Below are positions 18,768 through 60,031 of a stretch of DNA of 64,000 bases, piece after piece. Source of the DNA: Labia minor (taxonomy: Eukaryota; Arthropoda; Insecta; Dermaptera; Spongiphoridae); assembly GCA_963082975.1 (NCBI GenBank), contig OY720346.1, positions 32,048,720 through 32,112,719 on the forward strand, in the 5' to 3' direction. Position numbers and translations under genes: made by a program. Position 1 is the stretch's first letter. Every line of letters starts with the position of its first letter. The notes under the pieces are model-generated. The model was not told the origin of the DNA, ran no database searches, and worked only from the letters and a program-made list of their open reading frames with translations.

Positions 18768-19434
18768 ACCGACCGACGATAGTAAGGGAGGTATTGTTTT
18801 CACACCAAATTTCACATGTGGAGATTTTTACATATCTCCACGAATCATGCATTTTCTAAACAGAAAAAAGTATTTTTAGCATGATGTCTGTCCGTCCGTC
18901 TGTCCGTCTGTCCGTCCGTCTGTCCGTCTGTCCGTCCGTCCGTATAGATGTGTACAGCCTGAACGGCTCAACCGATTTTGATGAAATTTGGTATATTTAC
19001 TTAATGCATCAGTGGGATGAATTGATCAACTTTTGGTGCAAATCCGTGAACCGGAAGTGGTAGTATTAGCGATCGACGATAGGAAGGGAAGGGTTATTTT
19101 CACACCAAATTTCACATGAGATTTTTTTATATATCACCACGAATCATGCACTTTGTATTGGTTTTATCCTCGGGAAAATCATATTTATTAGTTTTTTCTT
19201 GATTTAAAATTATATGACGTCATCCAGCCATTCATGACGCCACAGCCTGGTCTTACATATAAATATATACATATATTATAAATAAAATAAAATTAAAAAT
19301 ATTTATGTTATATGCCTATATGTTTTTTATTACATGAATAGATATATTAAAATTATTTGAAATTGTTTCTGTAGCTGGAAATTAATTTACTTCAAACCGT
19401 CGGTCGGTTCGGACCTGGCCACAGGTCAACTTAT
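18768..19434 (+). mobile_element. Helentron-like family 2, copy B
   Basis: The longest copy (667 bp), complete from ACCGACCGACG to AACTTAT, with T on both flanks. It carries the longest GTCCGTCT-type microsatellite (18888-18944), which is translated by chance as a PSVRLSVRLSV-like frame and is not a gene. The 3' inverted motif CGTCGGTCGGT and hairpin GACCTG-GCCA-CAGGTC are intact. Confidence 0.85.
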
Positions 19435-19797
19435 TATTTATTTTATAATTTCCTTTATTTAAACATGGTATAGAAAGATGATCGATTCAATATAATATAT
19501 TCAAAAAAACCAGAAATTGGAATTTATTTAAATCTGTGCGTTAAGCTTCAAATACCATCAGTCGTGTCCGTACATGTTTATCAATAAATATAAAAATATT
19601 AATTTTATCAATGGTAAATATCAAATCTTTAAATTACTTAAATTGTTTATAAAGTTAACATTTAAATTAATTTCATAAAATTATTAAATAATGCTAATTT
19701 AATATTTTAATAGTATTAAAAATATTCTTTAATTATTATTTCAATATCTTCATATCTTTTAAAAAATAGACTGATTTTTAAAAATACAGAATATAAG
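19435..19797. other. AT-rich spacer
   Basis: No gene or element recognised between the family-2 copy and the retroposon. Confidence 0.5.
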
Positions 19798-20355
19798 TAT
19801 ATCTATCTGCGTGGGTCTACGGAACTAGAAAGTTCTTGGCCGCAGCAACTACATTTTTCCAAGTGTCCCTAACCTGAGCCACAACCATCCAATCTCTACC
19901 ATTTCCCATCTCTATCAAGTCCACTCCTACATTGTCCACCCACCGCGTCCTTGGTCTTCAACCTTCCAAATCGGTTTCCCTATGAATATATTTTTGCCAT
20001 TCTTTCCTCTCCCATTCTAGCCACGTTCCCTGCCCATCGCAGCCTTCTTGATTTTTTAACCCTATTCAAATCCTCGTTATGAAGTCTCCGCCATTCCCCG
20101 GTGACGTCATCTTTCTTTGGCTCATAAATGCTGCGAAGAATCCTATTCTCAAATACTCTAAATCTACTTTCGTCCTCCAGGGTCATTGACCATACCTCAC
20201 ACCCATAAAATACAACCGGCAAAAATAATTATTTTATATATTTTAATTTTGATCCCCTACGATAATAATTTGGACGAGATAAGCCCCTTCACCGAATGAA
20301 AAAAGGTGTTACCCGATTGCAACCTCGATTTAAATCCGTCTCGAATATTATTATC
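19798..20355 (-). mobile_element. LINE-tailed chimeric retroposon, copy 2
   Basis: The most complete copy of this chimera. On the minus strand the head runs from 20355 (GATAATAATATTCGAGACGG) to about 20225, then passes directly into LINE coding sequence, which ends near 19826 and is followed by a TATC/GATA-like tail. There is no Helitron end here, so this copy stands on its own. Confidence 0.65.
19980..20222 (-). pseudogene. LINE RT C-terminal fragment
   Basis: An 80-residue open frame reading YGCEVWSMTLEDESRFRVFE, then RILRSIYEPKKD, then RRLRWAGNVARMGEERMAK. This is the well-known region downstream of the reverse-transcriptase domain in LINE endonuclease-RT proteins (pattern YGCE.W, R..R.FE, LRWAGHV.RM). 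The RT catalytic box and endonuclease are absent, so it is only the 3' part of a retrotransposon ORF joined to an unrelated head. Confidence 0.75.
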
Positions 20356-21638
20356 CGAATTAAACATATTATTAATTAATTAATTATTTTAAATAATAAA
20401 ACAATAAATGTTAATTTTATTTTTCTTAATCTTATTTTTCATATAAGTGAGATCTATACATATGAAAGGTATTGTCAGCTGTCTCAAACATATTCTTCCA
20501 ACCGGGGCGGTTGGCCCCTATTCTGAAACACCATTCAATTGTTTTTCCCTTCAATAAAAATATTTTCACTAATCTTTCTTCTAAAGTAATTGATCCTTCC
20601 CGAGTATTGACTTTTTGATAATTCTAAATATATTATTGGAAGAAAAATAAAAGTTTTCAAGATGTCATTTATATAATATGTAATTTCAGTCCCCACAAGA
20701 GAATTTTATTTTAAATAATCTGCTTAAATTATGTAATTTAAGTTCATATAAAATATATTAGGTTATAATAAATATTAATATAAGAATTAATAAAAAATGA
20801 TATAATAAATAAATATAAATATATAAATCAATAAACTATTGTAAGTGAAGTGACTATATATGGATCATTTGATAAATCTAACATAAAAATTAAAACTAAT
20901 GATCCTAACATTATTGGAAATGACTTGTTTGGCAACTTAGTGGCCTCCTAACAATTATTTTGTTTATTATTATATTTTTTATCAAACTCTATAAATAAAT
21001 TTGATTAGCCCAATTATTAATGAAATAATAAAATGTAATGCTCTTTAATCTCTAATAATAAATTGGATAGAATAAAAGAAATAAGAGTTGAAATAAAGAC
21101 TTTGAATGATAAAAAAAGGGCGAAGAAGGGAAATGTAGGGATGAAATGCTGTATATGGGTGAGGGTGAAAATCTTAGCGATTAGTAGGAAATATGAGTGC
21201 AATAACAATAACATAAATCAGAATCTTAGACGGTTGGTGGCTGGCAACCATATTTAATATAATAGGCAGCAGCATATCAGAAAGACACAGAGAGAAAGAA
21301 AGAAAGAATTTCATATATTTTCTTGAAAAAAATATTAAAATGTACAATTTTTTTAAATATTTTGATTTTTTTTTGTATTTTAAATAAAACTTAAAAATTA
21401 TTAAACTTGTTAATATAGAGATGGATTAAAATCCCTTCTTATTCGATTACTCTGATTCTTCAATTGAACATAAGTTAACGTGAAAAAAAAATAAAAATTT
21501 ATAATAATCAAATTATCCATTTGCACGATGGAATTCATATAAAAATAATTTATAGTTATTTTTTTTTTTGATGTAAACAATGTTTGTGATAAATAAATTA
21601 GTAAAACTGATTAAATTATTTTAAATTTTATAATAATA
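20356..21638. other. AT-rich DNA with one GC-rich hairpin
   Basis: A perfect hairpin CCAACCG-GGG-CGGTTGG stands out at 20498-20514. The rest is AT-rich; the 64- and 65-residue frames on opposite strands near 21017-21257 are overlapping low-complexity reads. Confidence 0.5.
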
Positions 21639-22320
21639 CTAGCTGCCCAGAGACCTAGACCTAGACGCAGGCTCCGCCCCCTGTACCCCCGAGTGGTACA
21701 TAGTATTTGGTTGAACGTAGTAAAAGGTTTTCATCCATTTTGTTTCAATCAGTATATAACATAAAACATTCATTTCTTTTTGTGTTCTTATTTAAAATAT
21801 ATTATAATTTAATTAGTAAATTAATTATATATATTATTATTGTATATGTTATATCTAGCTATCTATGTGGCCCAACGGTACTCAAAAGTTCTTGGCCGCA
21901 ACAACCACATTTCTCCAAGTGTCTCTAATTAATTAATCTAATCTAATTAATTTTCCATGGCTATCTGTAATTGCAATTCCCGAATCTCCTATTATATTTA
22001 AGTCGTCTGGGTAACCTAATATTTTAGAATTGATTTCCGCATTTTACTCTTTCTTTACTAGCTTCAAGACAAATTTGAAGACCAAAATTTGAAAAAGTTT
22101 ATCCGGATCTATTGAGTCATACGTATGTTTTACTAAAGTCTACAAATAATTACTGAACAGAAATATTGAATTCGCTGTTTCTTTTCTAATATCTGTCATA
22201 ATGAAAATTTCTTAATTAATGTAGATTGATTTGGCCTGAACCCGCAATGACATCTCCTAATATTTCCTTCGCCTATGGTTCGTTAGTATTGTATAGGTTA
22301 TAATAGAAATAGAGTATATA
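21639..22320 (-). mobile_element. Helitron 3' end with LINE RT remnants
   Basis: On the minus strand the end is CTAG at 21642-21639 followed by T. The GC block GGCTCCGCCCCCTGTACCCC and the next 200 bp match the Helitron at 8625. The terminal GAGCGCC hairpin has been lost. As in the 8.6 kb Helitron, the LINE 3' tail begins about 210 bp inside (near 21850). The right (5') boundary is not visible; 22320 is only where recognisable sequence ends. Confidence 0.6.
21850..22295 (-). pseudogene. LINE reverse transcriptase remnant
   Basis: Minus-strand pieces in order: AKEILGDVIAG (compare the conserved AEEILGDYQCGFR), LFVDFSKTY then, after a frameshift, YDSIDPDKL (the D-containing RT motif), then LGYPDDLNIIGDS (the YADD box, changed to YPDD, at 22002-22016), then the far C-terminal tail. 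Internal deletions join the first aspartate motif almost directly to the YPDD box, and the YPDD box to the 3' tail. Inactive. Confidence 0.65.
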
Positions 22321-22786
22321 TATAATATTTCTTGATCACACACATTTCGTTTTTATTGAATATTTTTAAATGAAATTTGAGAAAATGCAAAGTTAGAGAC
22401 TTGAGACAATTTATAAAAATTAACGGTATAAAACTATAGATAAATTAACAATATATACATTCATTAATAGTATTAATTTAAATTAATTGATTTATTTGTT
22501 TTTTTATTATTAAGTTCATTTATTAACTTTTTTAGATGATAGTAAATTCCCTCCCTTAAAAGAAAAGAAGAAATATTCAAATATATAGAAAAATTAAATA
22601 AAAATTAAGTTAAATATCATCTAAATATTTTATTAAATTATGATAATTAAAATGAGAACTTTTAGAATAAATTATTTAATTGAAATGATATTTGAATATT
22701 AGAATTTAAAATATAAAGTTAAATATTATAATAATTCTCTGTTTGGGACTTCCTATAATAATTAATATATTCACATTGTGAAAATG
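22321..22786. other. AT-rich spacer
   Basis: No gene or recognised element. Confidence 0.5.
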
Positions 22787-22915
22787 ATTCCGCTGGGCCA
22801 CGCAAGGCTCTTGAATGAACAACACGGAGAATTATAAAAACTTTAAAAAATTAATTTCTACGGTTATTGATTAGATATTAATAAAATTTATAGCCTATGT
22901 CACTATAGAGGTATA
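22787..22915 (+). mobile_element. LINE-like repeat, left part
   Basis: Left half of an interspersed repeat broken by the Tc1 element at 22916. It contains TCTACGGTTATTGATTAGAT, found inverted near 27930. The other half follows at 24316. Confidence 0.5.
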
Positions 22916-24313
22916 CAGTCCCTGGCCAAATTATTAGACGCACTGTATTTTTTTAATAATTTTATGATTCTTAAGAGTTTTTATACAGTCATTGTATATT
23001 TAAACTACAATATTGTTGATTTTTATTTAAAAGATTTGTCGTAGACTACCTATTTGTATTTATTTTAAAAAAATGGCAACACTGTGTTGATAAAGTGATA
23101 CATGAACGTAAACAAGTACAAACCTGTATCAATCGTGATCGGGATCGCGGCAGGTACATACGTGTTTCTGTGGCTTTATGGACTGTCATTGTTTGTTTAA
23201 CTACTCAATTATTACTTTATTTTGTTTAGAGTGTTTGAAAAAAATATTTGGACTATTTTTATTATGGGTAGAAAAGTCGATCTTACACCACGTAAAAAAG
23301 TTGAATTGAAGGCCCTTGTGAATGCAAATACATTTATAAACCGGGAAATATCACGAAGATTGAAGGTTTCTGAAGCCAGTGTACGCCGCATAAAAAAGAA
23401 AATTGAGTCTGGGGAGGAATTAAGCTCAAAAAGAAAGAAAAGATGCTGTAGAAAACCAATTTTGATACATTATAATCATTTTCAGTTAAATAAAGCAAAG
23501 AAACATGGAAGTTTATATATTTTGTCTATTTTTGACAAGTCTGCTTCAGTGACGAAAGAACGAAATTTTGCAGAATAAAGCTCTGTATGTGCGTCGTCGT
23601 CATGGAGAAAAGTTTCATCCTGACTGTGTCGTTCCAACGGTGAAACATCCAACCAAAGTGATGATTTGGTCGGTCATCAGCGGCAAGGGTGCTGGACGTC
23701 TATACGTCGTAAATGGAATAATGAGGCAACACCAATACAAAGAAGTATTACAAAATCGGTTAATTCCGCAGCTCAAAGAATGGTTTCTAAATGGGGAACC
23801 ATTCACTTTCATGCAAGATGGAGCTCCCTGCCACACTGCTCGGTCTGTTAAAGCTTTTTTGGCAGAAGAAAATATCCCTCTGTTGGATTGGGCGGGTAAT
23901 AGCCCCGATATGACCCAATTGAAAATGTGTGGGAGCTAGTGAAAAGAGAAGTGGCTAAAGATATGATCACCAACAAAACCCAGCTCCTAGAAAAAATTAT
24001 TAATGTGTGGAATCATCACCCTCAAATGCAGGAGACAGTACAATCTTGCATTGATAGCATGCCGCGCAGAGTTGAAGCTTTGATAGCGGCTAAAGGTGGC
24101 TCGACTAAATATTGACTTTTATTTACATTATGTATTTTCATTTTTCTTTAATACTTAATAAACATATAATTTTCTAAATTAATGCTGTTTTATTTTATTT
24201 TCATTCATTAATATAAAAATAAAAAACAATTCAATTTATAAGTACAATATCACTCGGTAATTAATATTTTACATGAAATCTTGCAGTGCGTCTAATAATT
24301 TGGCCAGGGACTG
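22916..24313 (+). mobile_element. Tc1-family DNA transposon
   Basis: A 1398-bp element flanked by TA (22914-22915 and 24314-24315), with perfect 30-bp terminal inverted repeats starting CAGTCCCTGGCCAAATTATT (22916-22945 and 24284-24313). It encloses a broken transposase. Perfect ends but a decayed gene suggest a fairly young copy mobilised in trans, or decay after insertion. Confidence 0.9.
23264..24112 (+). pseudogene. Tc1 transposase, frameshifted and deleted
   Basis: Starts at the ATG of MGRKVDLTPRKK, the N-terminal helix-turn-helix part (to about residue 60: SVRRIKKKIESG). An internal deletion of roughly 55-60 residues, estimated against a normal length of about 340, then joins the catalytic domain. 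FSDERTKF (first aspartate, near 23551) is in another frame. After a frameshift follow YVRRRHGEKFHPDCV, FMQDGAPCH (second aspartate) and LDWAGNSPDM. A one-base loss near 23914 separates this from PIENVWELVKRE, which holds the third acid; spacing fits DD34E as in the Tc1 group. At least three frame breaks make it inactive. Confidence 0.85.
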
Positions 24314-24315
24314 TA

Positions 24316-24520
24316 TAAGAATAGTGTGATGTAATTGCATAGAAATTGGTTCAGCCAATTTTGAGTCTTTAACATCCTTATTTTCCGGACAGACAGACAG
24401 ACATGAAAAATTCTAAAGTCACTTTTCGATTCTAGAGGTCATGAAACGCGAAGATATGCAAAAAATTTTAAATTCTGAGCAATGTGCAGACAAAAAACTT
24501 TTATATATATATATAGATAA
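24316..24520 (+). mobile_element. LINE-like repeat, right part
   Basis: Resumes after the Tc1 element: AAGAATAGTGTGATG..., AGAAATTGGTTCAGCCAATT, a GACA run, then a 3' region ending GTGCAGACAAAAAACTTTTA and a (TA)n tail. A rearranged inverted copy lies at 27785-27960. The form resembles LINE 3' UTRs of invertebrates, but no coding part is present to confirm this. Confidence 0.5.
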
Positions 24521-25229
24521 ATTGAATAAAAAACAAATAAATAAAATTTATTTCTTTTTATATAATAATATTTTAAATATGTTTTTATAGTTTATTGCTG
24601 GTTAAAATTAAGTTAAACTATCTATCTAGCCTATCGAATTTATAAAAACACCATGCATGTATTTTATATAAAAAGGGCAACGAAAAAAGAGAGAATCCCA
24701 TCAGGATGTAAAGTATCCTCTCTCTCTTCCGATTTGGATAAACAAGATTTCCTGAACAGTATATTTGACAGGCAAGGTGGTGAAGATATATATATATATA
24801 TATGAAGGGATTGAGTTGTGCCTTGTTGAGGATTTGCTGCCTCGCTTGGCATCCCATAATCCCATATTTGTTGGCCCTTTTGATTTTATATATATATATA
24901 TATAGATAGATAGATAGGTCGTATGTGTATTTATCCGTATCGCATCGCTAACCATGCATTCTCATTCTCTCTCTTTCTTCTATAAGAATTCCCTCACTCC
25001 TCCACCACCTCCTTTTCTCATTTCCACCCTTGCCACTATCAAAAAAAATATTATTTTATGATTTATTTTCCCTATCTACTATATCTATCTTTACCCTATA
25101 GTTATAGTGTATTAAAATTTTTTTTGAATTTACTGAAACTCTTGAGATTAATTTTTAAGATAATATAAGAAATAATATGAGAATAAATATTCATTCACTT
25201 ATAATTAACAATAGTAATTAAATATTTTT
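24521..25229. other. AT-rich DNA with (TA)n
   Basis: Three overlapping minus-strand frames at 24618-24955 read through (TA)n and (GATA)n tracts and are not genes. A pyrimidine-rich patch lies at 24960-25030. Confidence 0.5.
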
Positions 25230-25728
25230 ACTATCTTTCCATAGATAATATTGAGATCATGAAAATTTTCGATGTCGAGATTTTGATGTTTTTATACGTT
25301 TTGAAGGTCCCTGAGTCATTTTCACTAAGATTGAAATGTGTTTATGTAGACAAGATTACATAAAAACAGTTTGATCTAGAATAATGCAATTTGGTACACG
25401 GGCATTATTAAAAATTCGTAGATTTCTACCAACTTTTGATAAATGTAGCTCATTCGGAAGAGGACTATTACCTACCACGTTTTCATTTTTTTCTCTAAAC
25501 TGACCGTAAAAATAAAGATTTTTCGTGATCGCAATACTATCTCTGGTGAGACAGTAAAAATTGTATAAAACTCCTATATATATAGAATTTCAGCTCGATT
25601 GAATCACTGAAAGTACCGGAATTAATTTTTTAACACTGCAAATCACGCGCCAGCACGTGATGTCGTGCCATCAACAAAGAGCCAAACATGCGAAAATTGT
25701 AAGAAATTCGAGTGGATACACTCCAGAT
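25230..25728 (+). mobile_element. Helentron-like family 1, copy 3, rearranged
   Basis: Starts ACTATC after T and keeps the central motif and the terminal palindrome region (GTGGATACACTCC). The microsatellite is almost gone. At about 25519-25557 the normal sequence is replaced by an inverted copy of the family's own 5' end (TTCGTGATCGCAATACTATC...), and the AT-rich part before the 3' end is deleted. Confidence 0.7.
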
Positions 25729-26887
25729 TTTTTTTTTAATTTTAATAATTTTACAGATCTATGCCTATTTTAGTAAGCTTTATTTGAAATTAATTGTTTA
25801 TTCTTAAACCAATTAGTGAAACAGAATCCTCGACTTCAAGTTTAGCTTACTTTATTATAATTACGAGGCAATCCTCCTTGACATGAATTAATTATAATCA
25901 ATAAATTGTTATTAATTGTAATATTCAACAAAAGTAAATAATTATTTTTATTAGAATTAATTTCAATTTACTTTGAATGCTAATGATTACTTCTTCGAAT
26001 TATTATAGTCAACCTGTTATTTTTTATAATATTTTTTTTTTTATTTTAATTCAATTATCCATTTCCAACAATTTTCATTTTATTTTTCACAAGTATAGCC
26101 AATGAATATATATTGTATAAATAAATAAATAAATACAAAACTCTATATGAATTCAATTCAAATGATATTTTGAATTTTACATTAAAAGACAAAGGTTGGA
26201 GAGAAGGGGAAACAGAGACTGTCCTTTATTTTCATATTATTCATAACGTTAAATCTTTTCCTACGTTTTTTACTGTAAGCAGCTGCTGTCATTTAATCTT
26301 ATGATGGAAATATTCTTTTATCTATTAAATGAAAAAGAAAAAAAAAAAAAGAAAAGGGAAAAATTCGCAAGCAACCCTTCATTCATTCTCATCATCCCTT
26401 CTCTCTTCAGCCATTGCTCTCATTCTTGCAACCTATTTGCCTTCATAAAGTACTTTAATATATATATACTATTTTTCTACTCTTTCACTTATATCTATAC
26501 ATCTATATGTTACGTAAATATAATAATACAAAAAATAAATAACGTAATCTCTCCCCTATTTTCTTACACTAGCTACTCTCTATTCAAATCAATATATATA
26601 TATATATATAATGTTGTTAAATAAATCCACAGTGTGTTGCTTTCTAAATAAAAAAATGATTTTAATATTTTATTATAATTATATATAAAATTAATACATT
26701 AGTTAATTATAATAGTTAGCTAAATAAAAAGAAGTTGAGTCTATTATAATAACAACATTAAATTATTAAACATTTGTTTTGGTTATTTATATTTAGAACG
26801 ATTAAAAGTTTGTTTATTGTCACTGTGACTTGATCCTTATTAGTTCTACATATGTGGCACAAGAATGCTCTTACATATATATAAATA
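25729..26887. other. AT-rich gene-free stretch
   Basis: Low-complexity A/T DNA. The 107-residue frame at 26301-26624 is Lys-, Phe- and Tyr-rich noise across simple repeats. Confidence 0.5.
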
Positions 26888-26954
26888 CTAGCTGCTCCGA
26901 GCGCCTTCGGCGCTCTCCACACCTAGACAGGGGCTCCGCCCCCTGTACCCCCCG

Positions 26955-27414
26955 AGTGTCCCTATATATTCTGAGCTATAACCATCTAACTCCTACCCTG
27001 TCCCATCTCTCTCACGTTCCTTCCTACATTGTCCACCCTGTTCACAATTGGTCTTCCAAACGGACGTTTTCCAATCGAACTCCCCACCAATATATTTTTC
27101 CTCTCCCATTCTAGCCATGTGCCCTGCCGATCCCAGCCTTCCCTATTTTATGACCTATATCTAGAGATGCATAGAGGTCATGCAATTCCTTGTTATGCAG
27201 TCTCCGCCATTCCCCGGTGTCCTTATCTTTCTTTGGCCCATAAATACTGGGAAGAATCCTATTCTCAAATACTCTGAATCTACTCTCATCTCCCAGGGTT
27301 ATAGACCATCCCTCCCACCCATATAATACTATTAATAATTTAATAATTTTGATCCCCTTTGATAATAATTTCCCGATTGCAACCTCGATTTAAATTCTTT
27401 GCAAATATTATTCT
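26955..27414 (-). mobile_element. LINE-tailed chimeric retroposon, copy 3
   Basis: Same head and LINE C-terminal coding remnant as the copies at 8.8 and 19.8 kb, with small deletions in the head. Its 3' side is fused to the Helitron end within the word CCGAGTGTCCC, so about 250 bp of Helitron and tail present in the 8.6 kb copy are missing. Confidence 0.6.
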
Positions 27415-30419: not shown

Positions 30420-30421
30420 TA

Positions 30422-31474: not shown

Positions 31475-31510
<36 letters not shown>

Positions 31511-38538: not shown

Positions 38539-39147
38539 ACCGACCGACGATAGTAAGGGAGGTATTGTTTTCGCACCAAATTTCACATGTGGAGATTTTT
38601 ACATATCTCCACGAATCATGCATTTTCTTAACAGAAAAAAGTATTTTTAGCATGATGTCTGTCCGTATAGATGTGTACAGCCTGAACGGCTCAACGGATT
38701 TTGATGAAATTTGGTATATTTACTTAATGCATCAGTAGGATGAATTGATCAACTTTTGGTGCCAATCCGGAAACCGGAAGTGGTAGTATTAGCGATCGAC
38801 GATAGAAAGGGAAGGGTTATTTTCACACCAAATTTCAGTTGAGGAGATTTTTTACATATCATCACGAATCATTCACTTTGCATTGGTTTTATACTCGAGA
38901 AAAATCATCTTTATTAGTTTTTTCTTAATTAAAATTATATGACGTCATCCAGCCATTCATGACGTCACAGCCTGGTCTTAAATATTTATTATAAATAAAA
39001 TAAAATTAAAAATATTTATGTTCTATCCATATCTGTTTTTTATTACATTAATAGATATATTAAAATTATTTGAAATTGTTTCTGTAGCTGGAAATTAATT
39101 TATTTCAAACCGTCGGTCGGTTCGGACCTGGACACAGATCAACTTAT
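38539..39147 (+). mobile_element. Helentron-like family 2, copy C
   Basis: Complete copy, 609 bp, T on both sides. The microsatellite is reduced to a single GTCTGTCCGT unit, the shortest in the window. The terminal hairpin has two changes (GACCTG-GACA-CAGATC). Both TGACGTCA sites are kept. Confidence 0.85.
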
Positions 39148-41221
39148 TTATTTTTTTAATTTACAAATAGATATAGTAATTGTTTAATTTTATTTTCGTA
39201 AATAAGTATATAAAAAAATTTAAATATTACAAAAATAGGTATATAGGCATTAAGTCAAAGAATCTTTAGCGGAATTTTTTAACATTATTATTGTGTTTAA
39301 TTATGCATTTTATTATCAAAATACATTAAAATTTTGTTCAAATCATCATTATATGACTTTTATATACTTTTCTTTATGTATAATATATAAATGACAAAAC
39401 AAAAAAAATCTATTTTTTTGTATAAAGTAATTATTATTCATTCAATGAAAGGTATAGATATACCTATATATTTTTTTTTATTTCAGTTGTTGGAATGGTT
39501 GAATGTGGGGGGGGGGAGAGTTGGCATTGGAGGTGAAAAAAGAGAAGGGGGAGGGTGAAGAGTGAATGCATACACAACTCCATGGATGGGTGGGTGGGAT
39601 AGAAAACTTTTTTAATAACATTCGACGCGCAACACCAACCACCCACATCCCTCCACCCATTCGTCCACCCTTCTATATATATATACAATTCTACCCTCCC
39701 CCTACCACCTTCACTACGATCCACCCAATTCCTAATCTTAATTAAAATTGATTTATTAAAAAAAAGTAAAAGTTATTTATGAGAATTTTTTATGAGTTGA
39801 ATATGTTACCACAAAATTACAACACACACACACACAGGCACACATTCATATATTTTTAAAGAAAAATTATATTAATAAGTAACTATTCTCTCTTCTGGTT
39901 TGTTTTATTTTTTAAAAAAAATGAAAATAAAATTTCGATTTTACTAAATAATTTTTTAGTTAGTTATTAATTATAATATAGTATTAAGATGAAAATGGAA
40001 TATTTTCATTATATTTTAATTTAAAATGTTTAAAAAAGATAATTATTATGTATTGATGAAATTATTTGAGTTCTCGTTAAATTTTCATATGGAGATGTCT
40101 TTAGTAATGGGGAGGTGGCACGTGGACCAAGCTGAACCAATAACACTTATCAAATATTTGACCTCAGTATGTCTAGCTCACTTGAATTTGAGACTGACAG
40201 ACACTGGCTGTCCACACACAATAACAAGGCTTGCCAAGTACACATCTTTGATATATATGGACAATCCTGGTGAATATTTTAATTATAATATTACATAATC
40301 TACATTTTATAAGAATGCTTTAATTATTTGTTAAGGTGAATCTAAACTGGAGTTTAAGCAATTAGTAGTCGGTCATATATGTTTTTAGTCTCTCTTTTTC
40401 ATTAAAAAAAAGATATTTTTCAAGTTTCCAAAGTCAATATTCAATAAAAATAATAAATAAAAATTATTATAATAACTATTCTCCCACAATTGATATCATT
40501 CAAAGCAAAAATACATTAGAATTATCAAAAATTATCAGTAGACATGGAAAATGTTAAATAAAATCACAGTTCATTGACTTAAAAAAAATCATATTCTGTT
40601 TTATATATATTTAATATCAATAGAAGCATAATAATAAAAAAAGAGATTAAATATTTAGAATAAAGAAAAATGTATTTTTGTTTATAATTTATAGAAATAC
40701 TATATATATCTAAAATTTAAATTTATTTGATTATTTATATAAAGAGAGTCTATTCTGATAAATTAGACTTAGAGAAGGAATAAATAAATAAATAATTTTA
40801 ATCCCAATTGTAATAAATTTCAATGGGTTTATGAGGGGGAGAGTAAGAGGTGTGGTGGAGGGTGATATAAATATAATTTAGATTAAATGATTAAAGGAGT
40901 CCGTTTTAGAGTAATTTAGAATTCAAGAGAAGATGTTCTCTGTTAAGATTAATGAACCGTAATCGGCACCTTTGACCGTAGCAGACTGTATATATATAAC
41001 CCGAATAGGGAGAAATCATTCCAGCTAACCGAGGATCGTATTGTAGGGGATAGAATCTAATCTAAGGATTTTCTATCATATTTTACATAAAATAATTAAT
41101 TTATAAAAAATTAATGTAAATTTGAATTTTTTGTGTTACATTGTTTATAATGCAATAGTCGGTTTAATATTTAATCTGATTATTATAATTAAATATTAAT
41201 ATTTTTAAATTAGAATTATAA
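39148..41221. other. AT-rich DNA, unclassified segments
   Basis: A G-run/purine-rich patch lies near 39505-39560. A 90-residue frame at 40026-40298, with slightly higher GC, has no recognised domain. A GC-richer segment at 40920-41060 contains TATATATATAACCC and may be an old promoter or LTR scrap. Confidence 0.4.
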
Positions 41222-42246: not shown

Positions 42247-42281
<35 letters not shown>

Positions 42282-45032: not shown

Positions 45033-45219
45033 CATGATACAAGTACACAAGGTATGTCCACGCGCAGCTTTTCCCCCTCTCTCTAGCTCACTGTGACGTC
45101 AGGCGGCAGACAGATGGTCGTGCCACTATTGAAATGATAGGAGCGGAACATTTTTTCGTTACAATAATAAACATACAATTAGCTTTACTTTCTGTAAATT
45201 GTTGAGCTGTGAAGTCAAA

Positions 45220-45602
45220 ATGTCGTATTGTGCAGTTCATGGGTGTAGTAATTTTAGTAAAAAGACATCTGGAATAATATATCATAGATTTCCAAAGGAT
45301 GAAAGTTTATGTAAATTGTGGATAAATGCCTGTGGCAGGGATGATAAGATTAATGTTAAAAATGATAAGTGTTTTTTTTTAAATAAGTAAAAATTATTAT
45401 TATAATAATATTTATATTAATATATTTAAAAACAGCGAGAATATGTTTCGAGCATTTTAATGTTGAATGTTATAAACGTGACTTGACAAAAGAAGATTTT
45501 ACAATTATCAGAACAAAATATATGCGTAATTTGAAACAAGATGCTGCATCCACGGAAAAATTACCAAAAAGAAAGAAGGAAATTTGCGGAAGTAAAATCT
45601 AA
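45220..45602 (+). pseudogene. THAP zinc-finger domain, two exons
   Basis: Exon 1 starts at the ATG of MSYCAVHGCSNFSKKTSGII and continues YHRFPKDESLCKLWINACGR to NDK. A probable 65-bp intron (45371-45435, GT...CAG) is followed by exon 2, RICFEHFNVECYKRDLTKED. Together they give the C2CH signature of THAP domains: C-x4-C, HRFP, W, and CxxH. The frame ends at 45600-45602 shortly after entering the region shared with the transposase C-terminus, so the DNA-binding domain is cut off from the rest. THAP is the known N-terminal DNA-binding domain of P-type transposases. The donor site is weak and only inferred. Confidence 0.75.
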
Positions 45603-46436
45603 ATTTAATGTTGAATATATAATAACAAGTAGAATTAATCAAGATATACTAGAAAATTTTTATTCGTACATGCGAGCAATGGGAGGGGCAAGAGATCATC
45701 CATCTGCTATAGATTTTCAACATCGACTAAGATGGTACATATTGGGAAAACATGCTTCAGCTGTATTTGTGAACAGTAAAAATACAGAATTGCTATCTTC
45801 ATCTGATGAAAACATAATTAAACCGGCTTGTGAATTTTCTGTAACATTAAAATCTAGATCACCATCATTGTCAGAGAGTAGTTTTTCACAAGGGGAAGTA
45901 GATGCTAACGCGACTGAAATTTTATTTAATACTATTAATTTTCAAAAAGAAGCAGTAGATTTGCATGACGATTGTATAGCTGTAATACAATCTCCAGAAC
46001 TTACCCATGAATTAGGGCCAATTTTTGAAACTGAATTAGATAATAATGCACTTATGTACTTAGCTGGATATATCGTTTATCGCTTTAGGTCAAAATATTC
46101 ATTTCTGGGCAATAATTTTAAAAAATTTGATAAAATAGATGAAACTTTAAACATTTAAGTTATCCAAGTGAAAATTTCTTTGCAATTATTAAAGTTGCAG
46201 AGGATATGTTTCAAAAGTTTCATGGAAATAATTTCAATAAAAACAATAATATAATATCAGATTTAGCTAATGAAATTCATACTAAAACTAAGCATATTGA
46301 AGATATTTCTATAGAAGTTTTAAAATATTATATAAAAGTACGAACGTATATTAGAATTCGAAAAATTAATCGAGAACTTTTACAAAAACATTTTTCTCAT
46401 AAATCAAGTACAGAGAAAATTAAAAAATTTTTATAA
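45541..46436 (+). pseudogene. P-type transposase C-terminal part
   Basis: A 205-residue open frame (45541-46158) contains ITSRINQDILENFYSYMRAM then GGARDHPSAIDFQHRLRWYI and LGK. This is the very characteristic motif LNQD.LENFF...R..GG..DHP....F.YRLR of P-element and THAP9-like transposases. ALMYLAGYIVYRF follows. A frameshift near 46150 leads into a second frame (46206-46436) with SENFFAI, FHGNN and YYIKVRTYIRIRKINREL, also typical of the family's end. The RNase H-like catalytic core and GTP-binding region between THAP and this part are missing, so the protein cannot work. Confidence 0.85.
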
Positions 46437-47119: not shown

Positions 47120-47121
47120 GT

Positions 47122-51644: not shown

Positions 51645-52188
51645 ACTATCTCGTCAGAGATATTTAATATTGCGATGTCGAGATTTTGATGTTTTTATAC
51701 ATTTAGAAGCACCCTGAGTCATTTTCACTAAGATTGAGAAAAATGTCTGTCTGCGTGAGTAGACAAGATAGTGCAAAAATGGTTTGAGCTAGAATAATGA
51801 AATTCTAAATTTGTAGTTTTCTATCAACTTTTGAGAAATGTAGCTCATTCGGAAGTGGGTCATTACCTACCACGTTTTCATTTTTTTCCTCTAAACTGAC
51901 CTTATAAATAAAGATATATGTTTGATAGTTTTTCACATGATTAAAAATTGTATAAAACTGCTATATATTGAATTCCAGTTTGGTTGAATCACTGAAAGTA
52001 CCGGAATTTATTTTTTAAATTAAACGTGACGTGGTGCCATCAACAAAGACCCAAACACACGCTGGTTTAATAAATATTATTTATTAATTTTAATGTATAA
52101 TTTAATTAATTACATTTAATTTAAATATAATATATGTTAATTAATACAATTCAAATTTGCCAGATAGTCACATGGAGACACTCCAGAT
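51645..52188 (+). mobile_element. Helentron-like family 1, copy 4
   Basis: Starts ACTATCTCG after T and ends at the palindrome TGGAGACACTCCA plus GAT, before T. The microsatellite site holds only TCTGTCTGCGTGAGT. Small internal deletions, and the opening hairpin is damaged. Confidence 0.7.
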
Positions 52189-52985
52189 TTTTTTTTAATC
52201 AGAGCAGGTACTTCTTATTTCAATTTTTAATCTTTCCCAATTTTAATCACTTAGGCTGAGTGAATCTCGTTCCACACTCCAGAAAGAGAAAATTTCTCAA
52301 GCTGTGGATCGAATACAAGTCTAAGACTTGACTAGGTACCCAGCGTCCTACCGTAAAGCCCCTAACTCCTTTTATCTCTATTAATCTTATTAAACGAATA
52401 AAAATTTTATCTAATTGTGATCTAGAAATTATTTTTATAAAATGGGGAAGTTTTTAAAATGAACATTCGATCTTTAAAGACTTATTTTAGGATGAATTCT
52501 TATAAATTATTATTAAATTAAGAAAATTGAATAAAAGTGCGTTATAAATATCATAGAATATCAAAAAGTATTAGTGGACATTGTTGACGAACTATTTCTT
52601 ATATATATGGTAAGAATGCAACTAGGAAATGCATTTTATTTGCTGACCTTTGAACAAGTGAATGTTGTTGTTTAAAAAGAATTATAAGTGAATGGTTAGT
52701 TGTTAGTTGCACTTGTTCCCATGTCAGAAGATCTGGTTGACCTTCTTTTTCTCATTCTCCTTTTATAAAATAGTGAAGGTAATTACCAACCACGCCTTTT
52801 ACAATGAATAAAATACCCTTTTATTACATCTATTCTATTCTTCAAGAATTTATAGTTTAACTTTGTTTACTAAACAGAGAAAATATTAATGATCGTTATC
52901 GAATTAATTTACTTCATCTATTTTACTGTCTTTCTCATTTCATAATTATACATATACACAATTATTTCAAGATTCTATATTTATT
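52189..52985. other. AT-rich spacer with one unclassified segment
   Basis: A GC-richer piece at 52255-52370 contains, on the minus strand, a GTATTCGATCC word like a B box, but no convincing A box or cloverleaf. Otherwise AT-rich. Confidence 0.4.
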
Positions 52986-53627
52986 ACCGACCGACGATAG
53001 TAAGGGAGGTATTGTTTTCACACCAAATTTCACATGTGGAGATTTTTACATATCTCCACGAATCATGCATTTTATTAACAGAAAAAAGTATTTTTAGCAT
53101 GATGTCTGTCCGTCTGTCCGTCCGTCCGTTTAGATGTGTACAGCTTGAACGGCTCAACGGATTTTGATGAAATTTGGTATATTTACTTAATGCATCAGTG
53201 GGATGAATTGATCAACTTTTGGTGCAAATCCGGAAACCGGAAGTGGTAGTATTAGCGATCGACGATAGGAAGGGAAGGGTTATTTTCACACCAAATTTCA
53301 CATGAGGAGATTTTTTACATATCACCACGAATCATGCACTTTGTGGTAGTTTTATTCTCGAGAAAAATCATCTTTATTAGATTTTTTTCTTAATTTAAAA
53401 TTATATGACGTCATCCAGCCATTTTTGACGTCACAGCCTGGTCTTGCATATATATTATAAATAAAATAAAATTAAAAATATTTATGTTATATCCATATAT
53501 CCATTTTTATCCATGTTTTTTATTACATTAATAGATATATTAAAATTATTTGAAATTGTTTCTGTAGTTGGAAATTAATTTACTTCAAACTGCCGGTCGG
53601 TTCGGACCTGGCAACAGGTCAACTTAT
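52986..53627 (+). mobile_element. Helentron-like family 2, copy D
   Basis: Complete 642-bp copy. Inner features used as the type example: hairpin GTGGAGAT...ATCTCCAC near 53036-53059, microsatellite at 53105-53130, and a second copy of the 5' block beginning CGACGATAGGAAGGG near 53260. Two perfect TGACGTCA palindromes lie at 53406-53413 and 53426-53433, followed by the 3' inverted motif and the hairpin GACCTG-GCAA-CAGGTC. It is followed by one T and then copy E. Confidence 0.88.
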
Positions 53628-53628
53628 T

Positions 53629-54263
53629 ACCGACCGACGATAGTAAGGGAGGTATTGTTTTCACACCAAATTTCACATGTGGAGATTTTTACATATCTCC
53701 ACGAATCATGCATTTTCTAAACAGAAAAAAGTATTTTTAGCCTGATGTCTGTCCGTCTGTCCGTCCGTCCGTCTGTCCGTATAGATGTGTACAGCCTGAA
53801 CGGCTCAACCGATTTTGATGAAATTTGGTATATTTACTTAATGCATCAGTGGGATGAATTGATCAACTTTTGGTGCAATTCCGGAAACCGGAAGTGGTAG
53901 TATTAGCGATCGACGATAGGAAGGAAAGGGTTATTTTCACACCAAAGGAGATTTTTTTATATATCACCACGAATCATGCATTTTGTATTGGTTTTATCCT
54001 CGAGAAAAATCATATTTATTAGTTTTTTCTTGATTTAAAATTATATGACGTCATCCAGCCATTCATGACGTCACAGCCTGGTCTTGCATATATATTATAA
54101 ATAAAATATAATTAAAAATGTTTATATTTATTATTTATGTATCCATATCTGTTTTTTATTACATTAATAGATATATTAAAATTATTTGAAATTGTTTCTG
54201 TAGCTGGAAATTAATTTATTTCAAACAGTCGGTCGGTTCGGACCTGGCCACAGGTCAACTTAT
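53629..54263 (+). mobile_element. Helentron-like family 2, copy E
   Basis: Complete 635-bp copy in direct tandem with copy D. It differs from D in the microsatellite and by a deletion in the second block (the words TTTCACATGAG are missing, near 53946), which it shares with copy F. The two tandem members are therefore not a recent local duplication of one another. Confidence 0.88.
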
Positions 54264-56289
54264 TTTTGTTTTTGTTTAAAAGAGAAAATACGTATTAATT
54301 TAAAATTAATCAACATAAGATTTAAAAAATTAATTAATAATTAAATTTATTTGTAAAATTAGAATAGAACAATTTTAAATTAATATTGTAAACAATACAT
54401 TTATATTTTTTTTTTAATCTTTATAAATGGATATCCTTTTTATTCAAAAATCTTCTTAAATGTAAAGACTCTAATTAAATTGAAAATCCTTTTCAAATTT
54501 CAATTCAAAGAATACATTTGAATTGTTTTTTATTTATTTATTTATTTTTTGTTTTTGTAAATGTTTCACTAAGGGTTTGTTTGGATCATGATGATTGTTG
54601 CGGGTGGAATATATTTTTCTCCTTCATCTGTTTTAGACTTGTTTTCTTTCGAAAATTGGATTAATTCCAAATTGGTATAGTCTCTTGAAATCGAAACAAA
54701 TCTTTAGTGAAACGATCAATGAGAGATTTCTCTACGCCTTCATCTTCCTATTCATTCTCCCTCTCTCTTCCCCTAACAGTCTCCAAATTTACTCCAGGAT
54801 AAAAAAAAAGAAATGGTCACCAATGGAATGGAATTTCAACCAGTCCACTTTATGTCCTTTTAGTTGTGTCGTGTATATAACGCACATATATTCACTATTG
54901 ATTCAGTTACAGTGAGTGAATCTATGAAGAGAAAAAGTAGTATGGGTGGATGATAATACGTATATCCGAAAGGAGGATAGATGGAAGGAAAAGGGTTGAA
55001 AAGTCGCCTAAACGAATACTCGACATTGAAAGGCCAAAGTCCAAAAGTACGGGGTGAGTATATATATATCTGTTTTTTTTTTATTTTCAATTTGTTTGCT
55101 TAAAAAAAACAGAAAGAAGATGAAGAAGAAGAAGAAGAAAAAGGAAAAAAATAAACTTTTCCTATTGGTTTTTGTATTATCTACGAAACGACGACCGGAC
55201 TGAAATGAACGAGAAGCGAATTGCTAGCCATCTCTTTTTCTTTTTCTTTTTTCTTCAATTTTGTTTTCTTTAACTCTTTGTGTCTTTCTAGTAGTTGTTA
55301 TGTAATCGATTTAATCGAACATTCATGATTTTTAATATTTTTCTCTCTGACTCTTTTATATTTTTTTCTTCTTCATCATTTTAAGATAAATTTGATTTTC
55401 TTTAATTTATTTTTTTTTCTATTTCTTTTTTATCTAAACTTAAACTCTTAAATTTGGATATATGATTTATGAATTTGATTCATAACTTTTATCTATCTTC
55501 TTTCATCTTCTAACTTCTATATAAATAAAAATGAAATGCATGTATGTATGTGGCGTTGTACACAGCTGTTGAATGGTCGAGGGATCCAAGAGGCGGAGAT
55601 ATAAATATCTGTTTAATAAATTAATTTAATTTAATTAATTACAAATAACTAAATCATAGAAAAATGAAATATTTCATTTCACACAATTTTTTTCTCATAA
55701 AAATTTCAACACTCAAGATCATAATTTTTCTCATAACCTAAGTTCCCTTTTAAAATATTTATACTTGAAACAGTGGTGATTCTCTTCCCACTCCCTGAGG
55801 ACCACAACCAGCCACTATAGTAGATATAATCACAATATATTACTAATCACAAAATTTAAATTTGAAAAATGTACTCAACTGTTTTCGAAAAATTACATTC
55901 CCTGTGAGTTAGTCAAAGGATCCCACACTTTTGGGACACTCTGTATAAACCAGATTATGTCTGTCTGTCTGTGTTTGTCCTTTATGCTATTTTGTTATTT
56001 TTGCTTCACTGCATGACTTTGTTTGCTACAGTTATCTCTAGCCAACCACTGTATATATAATATATATAATATATATGAATTAAAAAAAAACAGTTTTTTT
56101 AAGATTTTTAGCGAAATGCTCCCCAATAGGTTTTGGTAGCTATAAACACCCGTATGTAAGATTGGTGACAATAAAGAATCAACAGAGCATATAATTTCAG
56201 GTATGTCACTTACATGAAATCTATACACGATTTTGTAATACGAATAACACAAGGTTACATAGGAATCTGCCTTAAGTGAAACAGCGAAA
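54264..56289. other. AT-rich gene-free stretch
   Basis: Contains (GAA)n-like and CT-rich patches at 55115-55260 and (TA)n near 56051-56078. The 76-residue frames at 54685 and 54860 overlap on opposite strands and show no domain. Confidence 0.5.
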
Positions 56290-57099
56290 ATGAAGTGCCC
56301 ATGGACTTCAACAAGAGAAGGAACGAGCGTTTTGGGTGTCTATGAGATTCCCTGCTCAGACTGCCCGAGTTCATACATAGGAAAGACGAATAGGAGAATA
56401 CAAAATATAATTTATGAGCATGAGCTGTCTCTAAGGAGATTAGATCCGGCCTCAGCTTTAACCAAGCACTACAATGAAACCGGTCACAACATCAATTTCT
56501 CCAAAACCTTAGCTCCCATTCAGCTCAAATATCCCAGACTCCTGCATGAAGCAATTGAAATTGAAAAACGTCCCAATTGCCTCAATACAAGGGACGACGC
56601 CCTGAACCATCCTGGAAATTAGCTCTGAAATCACACTCCCAATCTCCCGTCAAAACTCCAACCCAATCAACTTCATCTCCAACCATTAATTCACAAACTC
56701 CTAAAAAACTTGCCACTAATAAAGTTGATCGCACAAACAGCTGGAATTCCCGCCTCAGATCCAGAACCAATATAAATCTCGCCATAAAGTTAAGCCTCGC
56801 CCACCAGAGTACACAAAAGCCCATTGTGGAAGCTCAGGTAGAATCCAAAAGGTCGGGTCCCAGTTGGCCTCGGGCTATTCTTCGGTACGGACGTGTGCCA
56901 GAGTCAGGATTGCCCCGGATTCTTCGGAGCTCCACAGCAACGCAGTGAGTACAAAACCTATCAACCCAAAATCCCGATATTAACCCTTGGTCACACAGAC
57001 TAAGACTCAGAATCCCAAAAAATATTCCCACCTAAATAATCTCTTGAAAATGGAGCCAAAATGGGTGCCGAAACGTCGAGAAAACAATCTCACAAAAAT
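56290..57099 (+). pseudogene. Penelope-like element, GIY-YIG 3' part
   Basis: The open frame at 56290-56622 encodes a GIY-YIG endonuclease domain: GVYEIPCSDCPSSYIGKTNR, then RIQNIIYEHELSLRR, TKHYNETGHNINF, LLHEAIEIEK and LNTRDD. This is the C-terminal nuclease of Penelope-like retroelements. The arginine expected in the R(I/L)..H motif is I here (QNIIYEH), so the nuclease would be dead. After a frameshift near 56600 a Ser/Thr/Pro-rich tail continues (PSWKLALKSHSQSPVKTPTQ) to 56948. The reverse-transcriptase part is absent. The 3' UTR holds a hammerhead-like motif at 57043-57080. The end is cut by a mariner fragment at 57100. Confidence 0.8.
57043..57080 (+). ncRNA. Degenerate hammerhead-ribozyme-like motif
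   Basis: CTTGAAAATGGAGCC, a short loop, then GGGTGCCGAAACGTCGAG. Penelope-like elements are known to carry hammerhead ribozymes with a CTGANGA core and a CGAAACGTC 3' core. The 3' core is intact here; the 5' core is mutated (CTTGAAA), so self-cleavage is unlikely. Assignment rests on family knowledge and position. Confidence 0.4.
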
Positions 57100-57583
57100 A
57101 ACTTCAAGATAATACTGTTTATTGACCGTACGACCATATGGTAAGAACTCCTGATGCACCACGCCATGGTAATCGAAGAAAACAGTGAGCTTGGGCGTCC
57201 AGAGCGAGGCTCGTCATTGGCATCTTCCCGGCCATTTTGGAAGAATTTGTACCACTTGTAAACATCTTTTTACTCAGAACAGTTTCACCGTATGCCACTG
57301 TCAACATTTCAAGTGTTTCGGAGCACTTTATTTTTAATTTTTACACAAAATTTGATGCAAATCATTTAATCCATATTTTTCGATAGCAAAAAATCGCCGA
57401 GTACGGAAAAGACATATAACCTTTACGCCTCTCACAACCAAACAAAAAAATGCTATACACTTGAAACTTGGTACAGATGTTCGGGAAGAGTGTACCAACA
57501 TTGGAAAACAAAAAAATCGATAATCGAAAGTACGTTGCGTACGTGAAATTTGAAAAGTCACCTTACTTTTCCAACACACCTCG
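57100..57583 (-). pseudogene. Mariner 5' half, internally deleted
   Basis: Minus strand. It starts at an end reading CGAGGTGTGTTGGAAAAGTA (57583 downwards), then a leader with AIEKYGLNDLHQILCKN, then LEMLTVAYGETVLSKK, YKWYKFFQNGREDANDEPRS and GRPS. There it jumps to VFFDYHGVVHQEFLPYGRTV and NKQYYLEV, where it stops at the Penelope remnant. The segment with the first catalytic aspartate is deleted and the end with the other catalytic residues is missing. A third distinct mariner lineage in this window. Confidence 0.75.
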
Positions 57584-59398
57584 TGTTATATATATATATT
57601 TGTATTTTTAAAATATTAAACCGCTCTAAGGATTTTTTTTAAAATTCACACCATAGATAATTTTTATAAAGAAAAATCGATCTATTGGTTACAGATCGGG
57701 ATAAATCATCTTTATTAGTTTTTTCTTAATTTAAAATAAGGTTTAAATGACGTCATCAACTACATCAGACCGAGTGCTTCCTCAAATACAATATATATAT
57801 ATAAATATTATAATTAAAATCAAATTACCGATTATAATCAGCCAAACCCGATAATAAGGAATATTTTTTTTAATGAGCGGGGTCTCGGTGAACTAGGTAC
57901 TTACACTTAATATGTTAAATGTTATTCTACTACTTACTATTATTTTAATTAAAATAAAAAAAATATTTCAAATTATATATTTATTAGTTATGTTCGTGAT
58001 TGTTTATTGTTGTATTTTAGTGAAAAATATTAAAATACAATAATTATATATCAATAACAATTTGAATCCAAATTTAATTTGTTTTATATTCTCTATAAAT
58101 ATATATATATATATAATTAATTTTGAATGGATTTTAAAAAATAATTTGCAATGGAAAGAGTGAAAAAAGTAAGATACAGAGAGAGAGAGTGTGAGAGAAA
58201 GAGGAGAGTGTGGGAATAATTATTTTAAAATCCCTTGTCAAAGCACACACATATTATTTATTTATTAATTTCCAAAAACTTTTATTTATTTTTGTGGGAT
58301 AAATCCCCATTAATGATCTTTTTATTAGTCTTATTTAAAAGAGAGACAGCGAAGTATGGGGGATATGTTTGATTTTTTTGAATGTATTAGTGGAATGTTT
58401 ATTAAACGTAAGCAAAAGTGTATGTATGTTTGTGTGTGTATGTGTGTATATGGATTAATTAAGCTGCGGGCATACGTATGTCACCCCCTTTGGGTAGATC
58501 CCTCTCTTTCTAATTAGTACCGGGAAATATTCACTCTTTCTCCTCATCCTTTTCCTCAACCCTCTCACTTTCCCTCTCTCTTTCTCGGCTGAGGACAAGA
58601 ACATCAACTAACAGGATGAAGGAGAGTAAAAGAGAAAATGAGAGAATATTTTAAATAAACTCCCCTTTCACCTCCACCCACCCTTCCCTTTCTCCGTTCA
58701 CCTACAATCCCCTCGACACATAAACCCACATATTCATCTTTATCATTTCTGATATCAATTAACAGAGACAAACATATTTCAAAGTATCTAATTTTATCAT
58801 CATTAATATTTTAAAATATATATCGTATATATATATATTTAAGATTAAATATAAATTGAAATAAATTCTAATGAATAAATATAATATTCTGATTGTAATT
58901 TCAAAGTATTTAAATAAAATACAAGTAAAATAATAATAATAATAATAATAAACAAAACATTTTCAGCTTATTAAATCTCTTTTTATAATGTTTTTCTCAA
59001 CTTCACTTGGCGTCTGTCTCTCTGTCTGTCTGTTCGCTCTTTTGACAAATTGAAATCGATTTTTCATCATCTTAATATTGAGATAGACTTTTGAAATATT
59101 TTATAGATATTTCAATCGATCTCTAGAAGGTATAGAAGAAATATTGAATTAGAATTAATTAATTGTAATTAATTAGCGATTAATTACTTTTAGTAACTAA
59201 CTCCTTTTGTATTGTTCCGATTATTTTTTTTAACGGATTCTGACGCAGAAATATTGATTTCAGGATAGATTTTAATTTTGAAAGTATTCAAAAAATTTTT
59301 ATAGCATTAAAATTAATGATGAATTCTTATTAATCAGTTGTATTGCCAATGAAGAGGGGTTTATTCCCCTCAAATGGCATAAAGAAAAAATCTTTTTT
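57584..59398. other. AT-rich DNA with a diverged family-2 piece
   Basis: About 57700-57770 contains TCATCTTTATTAGTTTTTTC and an adjoining TGACGTCA like family 2, with diverged flanks, so an old or related copy lies here. The rest holds GA tracts (58175-58210), pyrimidine-rich patches (58500-58720) and (AAT)n near 58930-58952. Confidence 0.45.
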
Positions 59399-60031
59399 AC
59401 CGACCGACGATAGTAAGGGAGGTATTGTTTTCACACCAAATTTCACATGTGGAGATTTTTACATATCTCCACGAATCATGCATTTTCTAAACAGAAAAAA
59501 GTATTTTTAGCATGATGTCTGTCCGTCCGTCTGTCCGTCTGTCCGTCCGTATAGATGTGTACAGCCTGAACGGCTCAACCGATTTTGATGAAATTTGGTA
59601 TATTTACTTAATGCATCAGTGGGATGAATTGATCAACTTTTGGTGCAAATCCGGAAACCGGAAGTGGTAGTATTAGCGATCGACGATAGGAAGGAAAGGG
59701 TTATTTTCACACCAAAGAAGATTTTTTTATATATTACCACGAATCATACACTTTGTATTGGTTTTATCCTCGGGAAAATCATATTTATTAGTTTTTTCTT
59801 GATTTAAAATTATATGACGTCATCCAGGCATTCATGACATCACAGCCTGGTCTTGCATATATATTATAAATAAAATAAAATTAAAAATGTTTTATTTATT
59901 ATTTATGGATCCATATCTGTTTTTTATTACATTAATAGATATATTAAAATTATTTGAAATTGTTTCTGTAGCTGGAAATTAATTTATTTCAAACAGTCGG
60001 TCGGTTCGGACCTGGCCACAGGTCAACTTAT
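59399..60031 (+). mobile_element. Helentron-like family 2, copy F
   Basis: Complete 633-bp copy after T and before T, with all inner features. It shares with copy E the small deletion in the second block. The second TGACGTCA has decayed to TGACATCA. Confidence 0.87.

Follow-up and report, generated by a model that had tools for sequence, protein, structure and literature searches.

The 64,000-nucleotide stretch of Labia minor (Dermaptera) DNA analyzed here (contig OY720346.1, referred to as C4; C4:32048720-32112719; hereafter the window) carries six copies of a short repeat, all of which lie on the plus strand. This arrangement raises the questions of what kind of element the repeat is, by which route it moves, and whether the common direction of its copies has a cause. 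Very probably, the six repeats all belong to one rolling-circle transposon family that is young, non-autonomous, and present in very high copy number; we place it in the Helitron2 group, which includes the Helentrons and their HINE/DINE-1 derivatives. Direct support for this comes from the ends of the copies, their target in T-runs, empty sites, the copy number, an excess of head-to-tail junctions, and a dimer present at two sites, the genome searched being 604 Mb in 71 contigs.

The 11-base end ACCGACCGACG occurs exactly on the plus strand of the window at 8099, 18768, 38539, 52986, 53629, and 59399, and with at most one mismatch it has 11 matches over both strands against 0.04 expected. Each copy begins with this sequence, contains a GTCC/GTCT microsatellite of differing length, and closes with the layout CGTCGGTCGGT-TCG-GACCTGGCCACAGGTC-AACTTATT, with small changes between copies; the complete element, ACCGACCGACG ... 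CGTCGGTCGGTTCGGACCTGGCCACAGGTCAACTTATT, is approximately 0.62 kb long, and no recognizable protein is encoded by it. An inverted copy of ACCGACCGACG is exact in three elements (10139, 19398, and 39111), one base off in two (54227 and 59995), and two bases off in the element ending at 53628, in which it reads TGCCGGTCGGT. These 11-bp inverted repeats are asymmetric, being located 0 bp from the 5' end and 27 bp from the 3' end (38 bp if the inverted repeat itself is counted), and a hairpin lies 8 bp from the 3' end. Its GACCTG/CAGGTC stem is exact in five of the six copies, against 0.00 expected, with a single stem change in the 38.5-kb copy. The first-pass annotation, made from the sequence of the window, had described the six plus-strand copies, the hairpin, and the variable microsatellite, all of which were confirmed; the inverted copy that it placed near the 3' end is present in all six, although exact in only three, and the feature that it delimited started at 18768, which leaves copy 1 (8099) outside although the annotation lists it.

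When folded as single-stranded DNA and compared with shuffled sequences, the 3' hairpin (for example, 19412-19427 on the plus strand in copy 2, with a matching stem) had a z-score of -3.15, compared with -3.60 for the terminal 41 consensus bases. An Rfam scan of the window returned 0 matches at gathering scores, and a literature search for the 11-base end listed no title on transposons. Midway along the family consensus there is also a diverged duplicate of its opening 90 bases (85% over 92 bp by self-BLAST), which in copy 2 is found at 19066-19157 (plus strand) with 84% identity to that copy's own 5' end.

Copy 1 (8099-10176) is interrupted by a nested element, and was aligned by BLAST in two pieces, 8099-8624 and 10071-10174. 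Copy 2 (18768-19435) retains the hairpin and has the longest microsatellite of the six (approximately 59 bp), and copy 3 (38539-39148), which carries the stem change, has the shortest. Copy 4 (52986-53628), also with its hairpin, is the upstream partner in a direct head-to-tail pair, in which copy 5 (53629-54264) begins directly after the CAACTTATT of copy 4; copy 6 occupies 59399-60032. A decayed relative without ends is located at 57696-57827 on the plus strand and is 75.6% identical to the middle of the element (BLAST). Identity to copy 2 was 82-90% for the other window copies when the microsatellite was counted (BLAST). Outside the microsatellite, a sample of 15 copies drawn from C1, the window, and the window flanks, which omits the interrupted copy 1, had a mean pairwise difference of 4.8%, and the family is therefore young.

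Abundance and target site

The genome-wide count of ends that the first-pass annotation had proposed revealed 24,052 occurrences of the exact 20-base 5' end, distributed evenly between the strands (11,991/12,061), against 0 for the reversed control; the 11-base end occurs 25,431 + 25,612 times against 50 + 42 for its own reversed control. At 0.62 kb per 5' end, the family accounts for approximately 2.5% of the genome, which is a generous figure because some copies are not full length. Two matches of an 18-base 3' end in viral contigs were both attributed to chance in GC-rich contigs and set aside.

TTTTT directly precedes 20,827 of the 24,052 exact 5' ends (86.6%), and the five bases before ACCG in 25 5' ends were TTTTT in 19, TTATT in five, and TCATT in one; the 5' flank of each of the six window copies ends in TT. 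The T|T insertion site that had been claimed for the family holds with the 3' end set at CAACTTATT, whereas each of the six window copies has an A directly following CAACTT, because the ATT at this position, which was found in 17 of 20 sampled 3' ends, most likely belongs to the element.

Empty sites were sought at copies with both ends. Among 19 such copies, seven were aligned to paralogs residue by residue, and these seven queries yielded usable paralogs for three (L001, L005, and copy 6), a weak paralog (approximately 75%) for one, and none for another; the two remaining queries were minus-strand copies, one of which gave a clean site upon realignment and the other of which was dropped for its changed 5' end. 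The clean empty sites were those of L001, an insertion nested in a reverse-oriented copy of the same family (four paralogs displayed), L005 (three paralogs), and the realigned minus-strand copy with ends at window positions -5956 and -5318 (one paralog, 96% over 120 bp). At all three, the inserted DNA is accounted for by ACCG...CAACTTATT inside a T-run, and the sole extra letters are a 3' ATT, which can equally be read as two T's and one A. Target duplications at other copies, which the first-pass annotation had named as a point that would speak against its reading, were not found at these three sites beyond an indistinguishable TT. L004 (CAACTTAG) has no TT at its site.

These results also bear on a miniature inverted-repeat transposable element (MITE) moved by a DDE transposase, which would likewise be short, non-coding, abundant, and furnished with inverted repeats; elements of the present kind have sometimes been filed as MITEs (PMC4067079). 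However, the repeats are not at both termini, since the 3' repeat lies 27 bp inside and is followed by a hairpin, and there is no fixed target duplication, at most the indistinguishable TT, and hence we regard this origin as very improbable.

As a separate observation on target sites, the copy at window position +152994 (C4:32201713) and a dimer at 20.249 Mb of C1 apparently occupy the same T-run in paralogous copies of another repeat, which reads CTCC-T6-AAAATTT...AGAGGGAGAG.

Class and candidate Rep-helicase partners

Regarding the assignment to the Helitron2 group, Helitron2 elements have been described as carrying asymmetric terminal inverted repeats of 8-15 bp located 0-2 bp from the 5' end, with the 3' repeat 20-30 bp from the end and directly before a hairpin, and as inserting after TTTT with no duplication; non-autonomous copies in Chlamydomonas measure 657 and 673 bp and are 95-98% identical to the consensus (passages on these elements in PMC3627910). 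The present family resembles Helitron2 (Bao and Jurka, 2013) in its repeat spacing, hairpin, T-run insertion, and short non-autonomous copies, and differs from the published description in that its 5' hairpin is without folding support and a partner with both ends was not found among the sampled Rep genes. With the HINE/DINE-1 elements (Thomas et al., 2014), it shares subterminal inverted repeats, a palindrome that lies 8 bp before the 3' end, and a microsatellite, as well as a T-rich target that is left unaltered and a high copy number, as far as the relevant sections of PMC4067079 describe them. In contrast, its repeat is 11 bp long, compared with 12-15 bp in mite HINEs or 13 bp in DINE-1 (the family rule in the same sections being an inverted repeat of at least 11 bp), its 3' spacing is 27 bp rather than the 38-60 bp of mite HINEs (PMC4067079), and an endonuclease-bearing partner was not found in two Rep frames read whole and the ends of a third.

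FoHeli, a Helitron2-like group in Fusarium, has a 3' inverted repeat approximately 20-40 bp from the end, and two of its subgroups, which terminate in ATTTT, have their insertion site between TNAT and T, near the TTATT|T observed here; according to PMC5148889, an endonuclease was not found in fungal Helitrons. FoHeli differs in sequence and genome, and in having one adjacent pair reported in that paper, against 98 close head-to-tail junctions here. Canonical Helitrons (Helitron1) also belong to the rolling-circle group; however, the six-copy family is without a 5' TC, a 3' CTRR, and an A|T target, and instead has ACCG...TTATT in T-runs. We file the family in the Helitron2 group because its 0/27-bp repeat spacing and TTTTT target match that group and because Helentrons cluster with Helitron2, their ends being similar and an endonuclease added (PMC5148889, in part). 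The target and 3' spacing fit Helitron2 at least as well as Helentrons proper.

The Helitron_like_N domain (PF14214) has 104 matches in the genome. Three of the six best Rep loci have a readable motif (L033-L035), which is RGLPHAH in each and identifies them as canonical Helitrons. The Rep motif of L037 and L038, YWWR..EFQNRGSPH, is the Helentron-clade signature given in the section of PMC4067079 on this clade, and their frames, of 1785 and 1754 amino acids, contain DUF6570, Rep, and a PIF1 helicase; both were read whole, with no endonuclease domain in Pfam at E<=0.001. A further frame with a Rep match, of 2181 amino acids (L039/L045, C1:47863894-47870436, minus strand), was read over its first 312 (L039) and last 202 amino acids (L045), with no endonuclease hit in these two ends, and its C-terminal end has a weak C48 (Ulp1)-like match below the Pfam cut-off. 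Internal repeats and a TnsA_C match (E 1.3e-05, possibly spurious) were noted near the start of this frame.

A stretch of 4-10 kb was read at each of eight Rep loci (L037-L044) out of the 104 matches, and the family 5' end was present in one, L039, 2.5 kb upstream of the Rep frame. L039 was not accepted as the autonomous partner, the copy at this 5' end following the consensus no further than position 522; that a truncated copy lies there by chance is plausible, and by our own estimate so is the occurrence of one 5' end by chance near one of eight Rep loci at such a copy density. Two other sets of Rep genes were observed in passing: five equal-score matches with stops at C5:46739897-46792979, spaced 9.8, 9.8, 5.7, and 5.7 kb apart, probably represent the decayed remains of a tandemly repeated Helitron-type gene, and a gene in seven equal-score copies (C1, C2, C5, C9, and C10; six frames of 1651-1652 amino acids and one of 1537) is perhaps the youngest autonomous rolling-circle family in the genome.

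If the family were a HINE in the strict sense, its partner would be a Helentron, namely, a Rep-helicase with a fused apurinic/apyrimidinic (AP) endonuclease, and two points are in keeping with this: the clade signature in L037 and L038, and the HINE/DINE-1 architecture, in which subterminal inverted repeats, a 3' palindrome, and a microsatellite go together with a TT target and a lack of duplication (PMC4067079, relevant sections). Since the 1785- and 1754-amino-acid frames gave no endonuclease hit, the third frame ends in the weak C48-like match, and the 3' repeat is located 27 bp from the end against the 38-60 bp given for mite HINEs in those sections, we find a strict Helentron rather doubtful. 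Even prospects may be given to a Helitron2 without an endonuclease, for which an L037/L038-type Rep-helicase gene would be the partner; repeat spacing, hairpin position, T-run insertion, and the lack of duplication all match, and Rep frames of the Helentron clade without an endonuclease are present in the genome, but the 5' hairpin is no better than shuffled sequences, and a partner with both ends was not found, the 5' end in one of eight Rep loci being possibly due to chance. The first-pass designation as Helentron-like, with a HINE/DINE-1 architecture, is right as to class, the family being rolling-circle, non-autonomous, and part of the Helitron2/Helentron/DINE-1 group, but it is not retained for a strict Helentron, no endonuclease partner having been found in the frames read, and the search for a Rep/helicase Helentron with the same ends produced none carrying both among the sampled Rep genes.

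Several observations weigh against the assignment to a rolling-circle family of the Helitron2 group. An autonomous element with both exact ends was not found among the sampled Rep genes, nor was the family 3' end found in the 3.4 kb after the L039 Rep frame, and L037/L046, which is like L039 in part of its upstream DNA, is without the family 5' end. A 5' hairpin that includes the 5' repeat can be drawn, as in the Helitron2 description, but its z-score is -0.37, and 68 of 200 shuffles fold equally well or better. A 2-bp TT duplication leaves the same letters as T's carried by the element, and earlier work on DINE-1 has been called inconclusive on TT duplication (PMC4067079, in the part on target sites). 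The insertion-free paralog of copy 6, approximately 99 kb upstream, spans the site, but its AT-repeat length differs, which leaves the boundary approximate.

Orientation, junctions, and dimers

The first-pass annotation regarded the shared direction of the six copies as unlikely by chance, at 1 in 32. This arithmetic is right for the chosen stretch, but approximately 376 runs of at least six same-strand copies are expected by chance among 24,052. The order of strands was followed over the first 3 Mb of C1 and 264 kb of C4. The first 100 exact 5' ends of C1 (0.25-3.09 Mb; 47 plus and 53 minus) form 52 strand runs against 50.8 expected, the longest run is seven against 6.8, and three of 95 six-copy windows are one-stranded against 3.1% expected. 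In the C4 region of 264 kb that includes the window, 21 distinct copies form eight runs against 11.5 expected (P=0.09), and the 15 intact 5' ends gave P=0.10 and the flanks alone P=0.37; a run count of P=0.0017 from 22 BLAST pieces was withdrawn because it counted one element twice and missed a plus-strand end at window position +116619. Neither the claimed departure from chance nor an orientation bias along scaffolds was borne out in these two regions, and the shared direction of the six copies is about what chance gives.

A regional signal, such as the replication fork or transcription, might in principle set the direction of insertion and thereby make one-strand domains. The six plus-strand window copies and a run of several minus-strand copies upstream are in line with this, as is the value of P=0.065 for 22 distinct copies including the decayed plus-strand fragment of the window; however, the deduplicated C4 counts are not significant, the first 100 copies of C1 are in random strand order, and no matching switch is visible by eye in the skew across the 264 kb once the copies are masked, and we therefore consider such a signal highly unlikely. 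A strand bias of bacterial elements has been described (PMC5371812, in part), and a literature search on how rolling-circle transposons are oriented relative to the replication fork and the lagging strand returned no paper.

A same-strand bias is real only at direct adjacency. Within 20 bp, the genome contains 98 head-to-tail junctions against approximately 10 expected by density, in contrast to seven places with a head-to-head pattern (three read as true 5'-to-5' arrangements and one as actually head-to-tail) and three tail-to-tail; the latter two patterns are palindromic, so that each place was listed twice, and the reversed controls gave 1 + 1. The spacer is exactly ATT in 22 of the 98 junctions. 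The window pair at 53.0/53.6 kb was rejected as a fresh rolling-circle duplicate because the two copies differ at 33 of 592 sites (5.6%); more likely, a second copy inserted at the end of the first.

A 13-bp spacer is common to three junctions (C1, C6, and C10), and 700 bases of each were read. The C10 dimer (L049) was rejected as the same dimer since its upstream copy differs at 24 of 267 sites with 46 gap columns. In the C1 dimer (20.25 Mb) and the C6 dimer (37.2 Mb), the 3' part of the upstream copy is identical at 288 of 290 bases, compared with 17-26 base differences plus gaps between this copy and nine others. The homology between the two dimers spans TTTTT|ACCG to CAACTTATT plus one common T, and when the flanks of the C1 dimer are joined without ACCG...CAACTTATT, they match two paralogs of another repeat with no gap at the join. 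Because the homology ends at the outer ends, the flanks are unrelated, and the upstream copy is shared and distinctive, this dimer was most likely transposed as one unit, bounded by the 5' end of its first copy and the 3' end of its second, which fits a rolling-circle unit running past an internal stop; a missed stop signal has already been proposed for Helitron arrays (PMC4067079, in the part on arrays). On the other side, the downstream copies of the two dimers differ at four of 330 sites, which is not distinctive because unrelated copies differ at 2-10, the microsatellite lengths differ between the dimers, and a dimer might in principle also be mobilized by a cut-and-paste enzyme that acts on its two outermost ends.

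Rep nicking, single-strand transfer, a shared cleavage word, and the acting enzyme are inferred, the nick, the transfer, and the stop at the hairpin from the Helitron2 and Helentron families. Probably, a Rep-helicase encoded by a different element nicks a strand at TTTTT|ACCG and peels it off, the transfer would end at the 3' hairpin and CTTATT|, and the strand would then be joined into another T-run, with the second strand being filled in by the host. If the stop signal were missed, two adjacent copies would move together. As judged from the junctions, end samples, and target counts, what looks like one cleavage word occurs both as the 5' target, TTTTT| or TTATT|, and as CTTATT| at the element's own 3' terminus, and the 3' end of an existing copy may thus be a target for a newcomer in the same direction.

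Neighboring elements and implications

Copy 1 is interrupted by a canonical, Helitron1-type element of 1461 bp (8625-10085, minus strand) with a 5' TC and a 3' hairpin followed by CTAG. It sits between A and T with no target duplication, its excision recreates the junction sequence of the five other window copies, and it is a case of one rolling-circle type inside another. A relative with 93% identity is located at window positions +91953 to +93429, approximately 83 kb away, and many partial relatives are nearby. Elsewhere in the window, transposase remnants with THAP and TNP-like RNase H matches extend across frames at 45133-46436, and a Mariner-type transposase fragment is present at 62424-62687 (Transposase_1, E 6e-18), both on the plus strand. 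The plus-strand frame at 56263-56619 has no Pfam match at E<=0.001 and resembles a GIY-YIG endonuclease of the kind present in Penelope-like elements.

To our knowledge, there is no worked-out biochemistry of Helitron2/Helentron-type transposition. The 24,052 5' ends, the empty sites, the 98 junctions, and the dimer at two sites of the present family form a good natural data set for its cleavage and stop rules. We tentatively propose, as a possibility somewhat short of even, that each copy brings with it a landing pad at which a further copy can insert in the same orientation, and that dimers formed in this manner or by a missed stop spread as units. If this is true, the head-to-tail growth of Helitron2-type elements would be built into their cleavage rule rather than being an accident.

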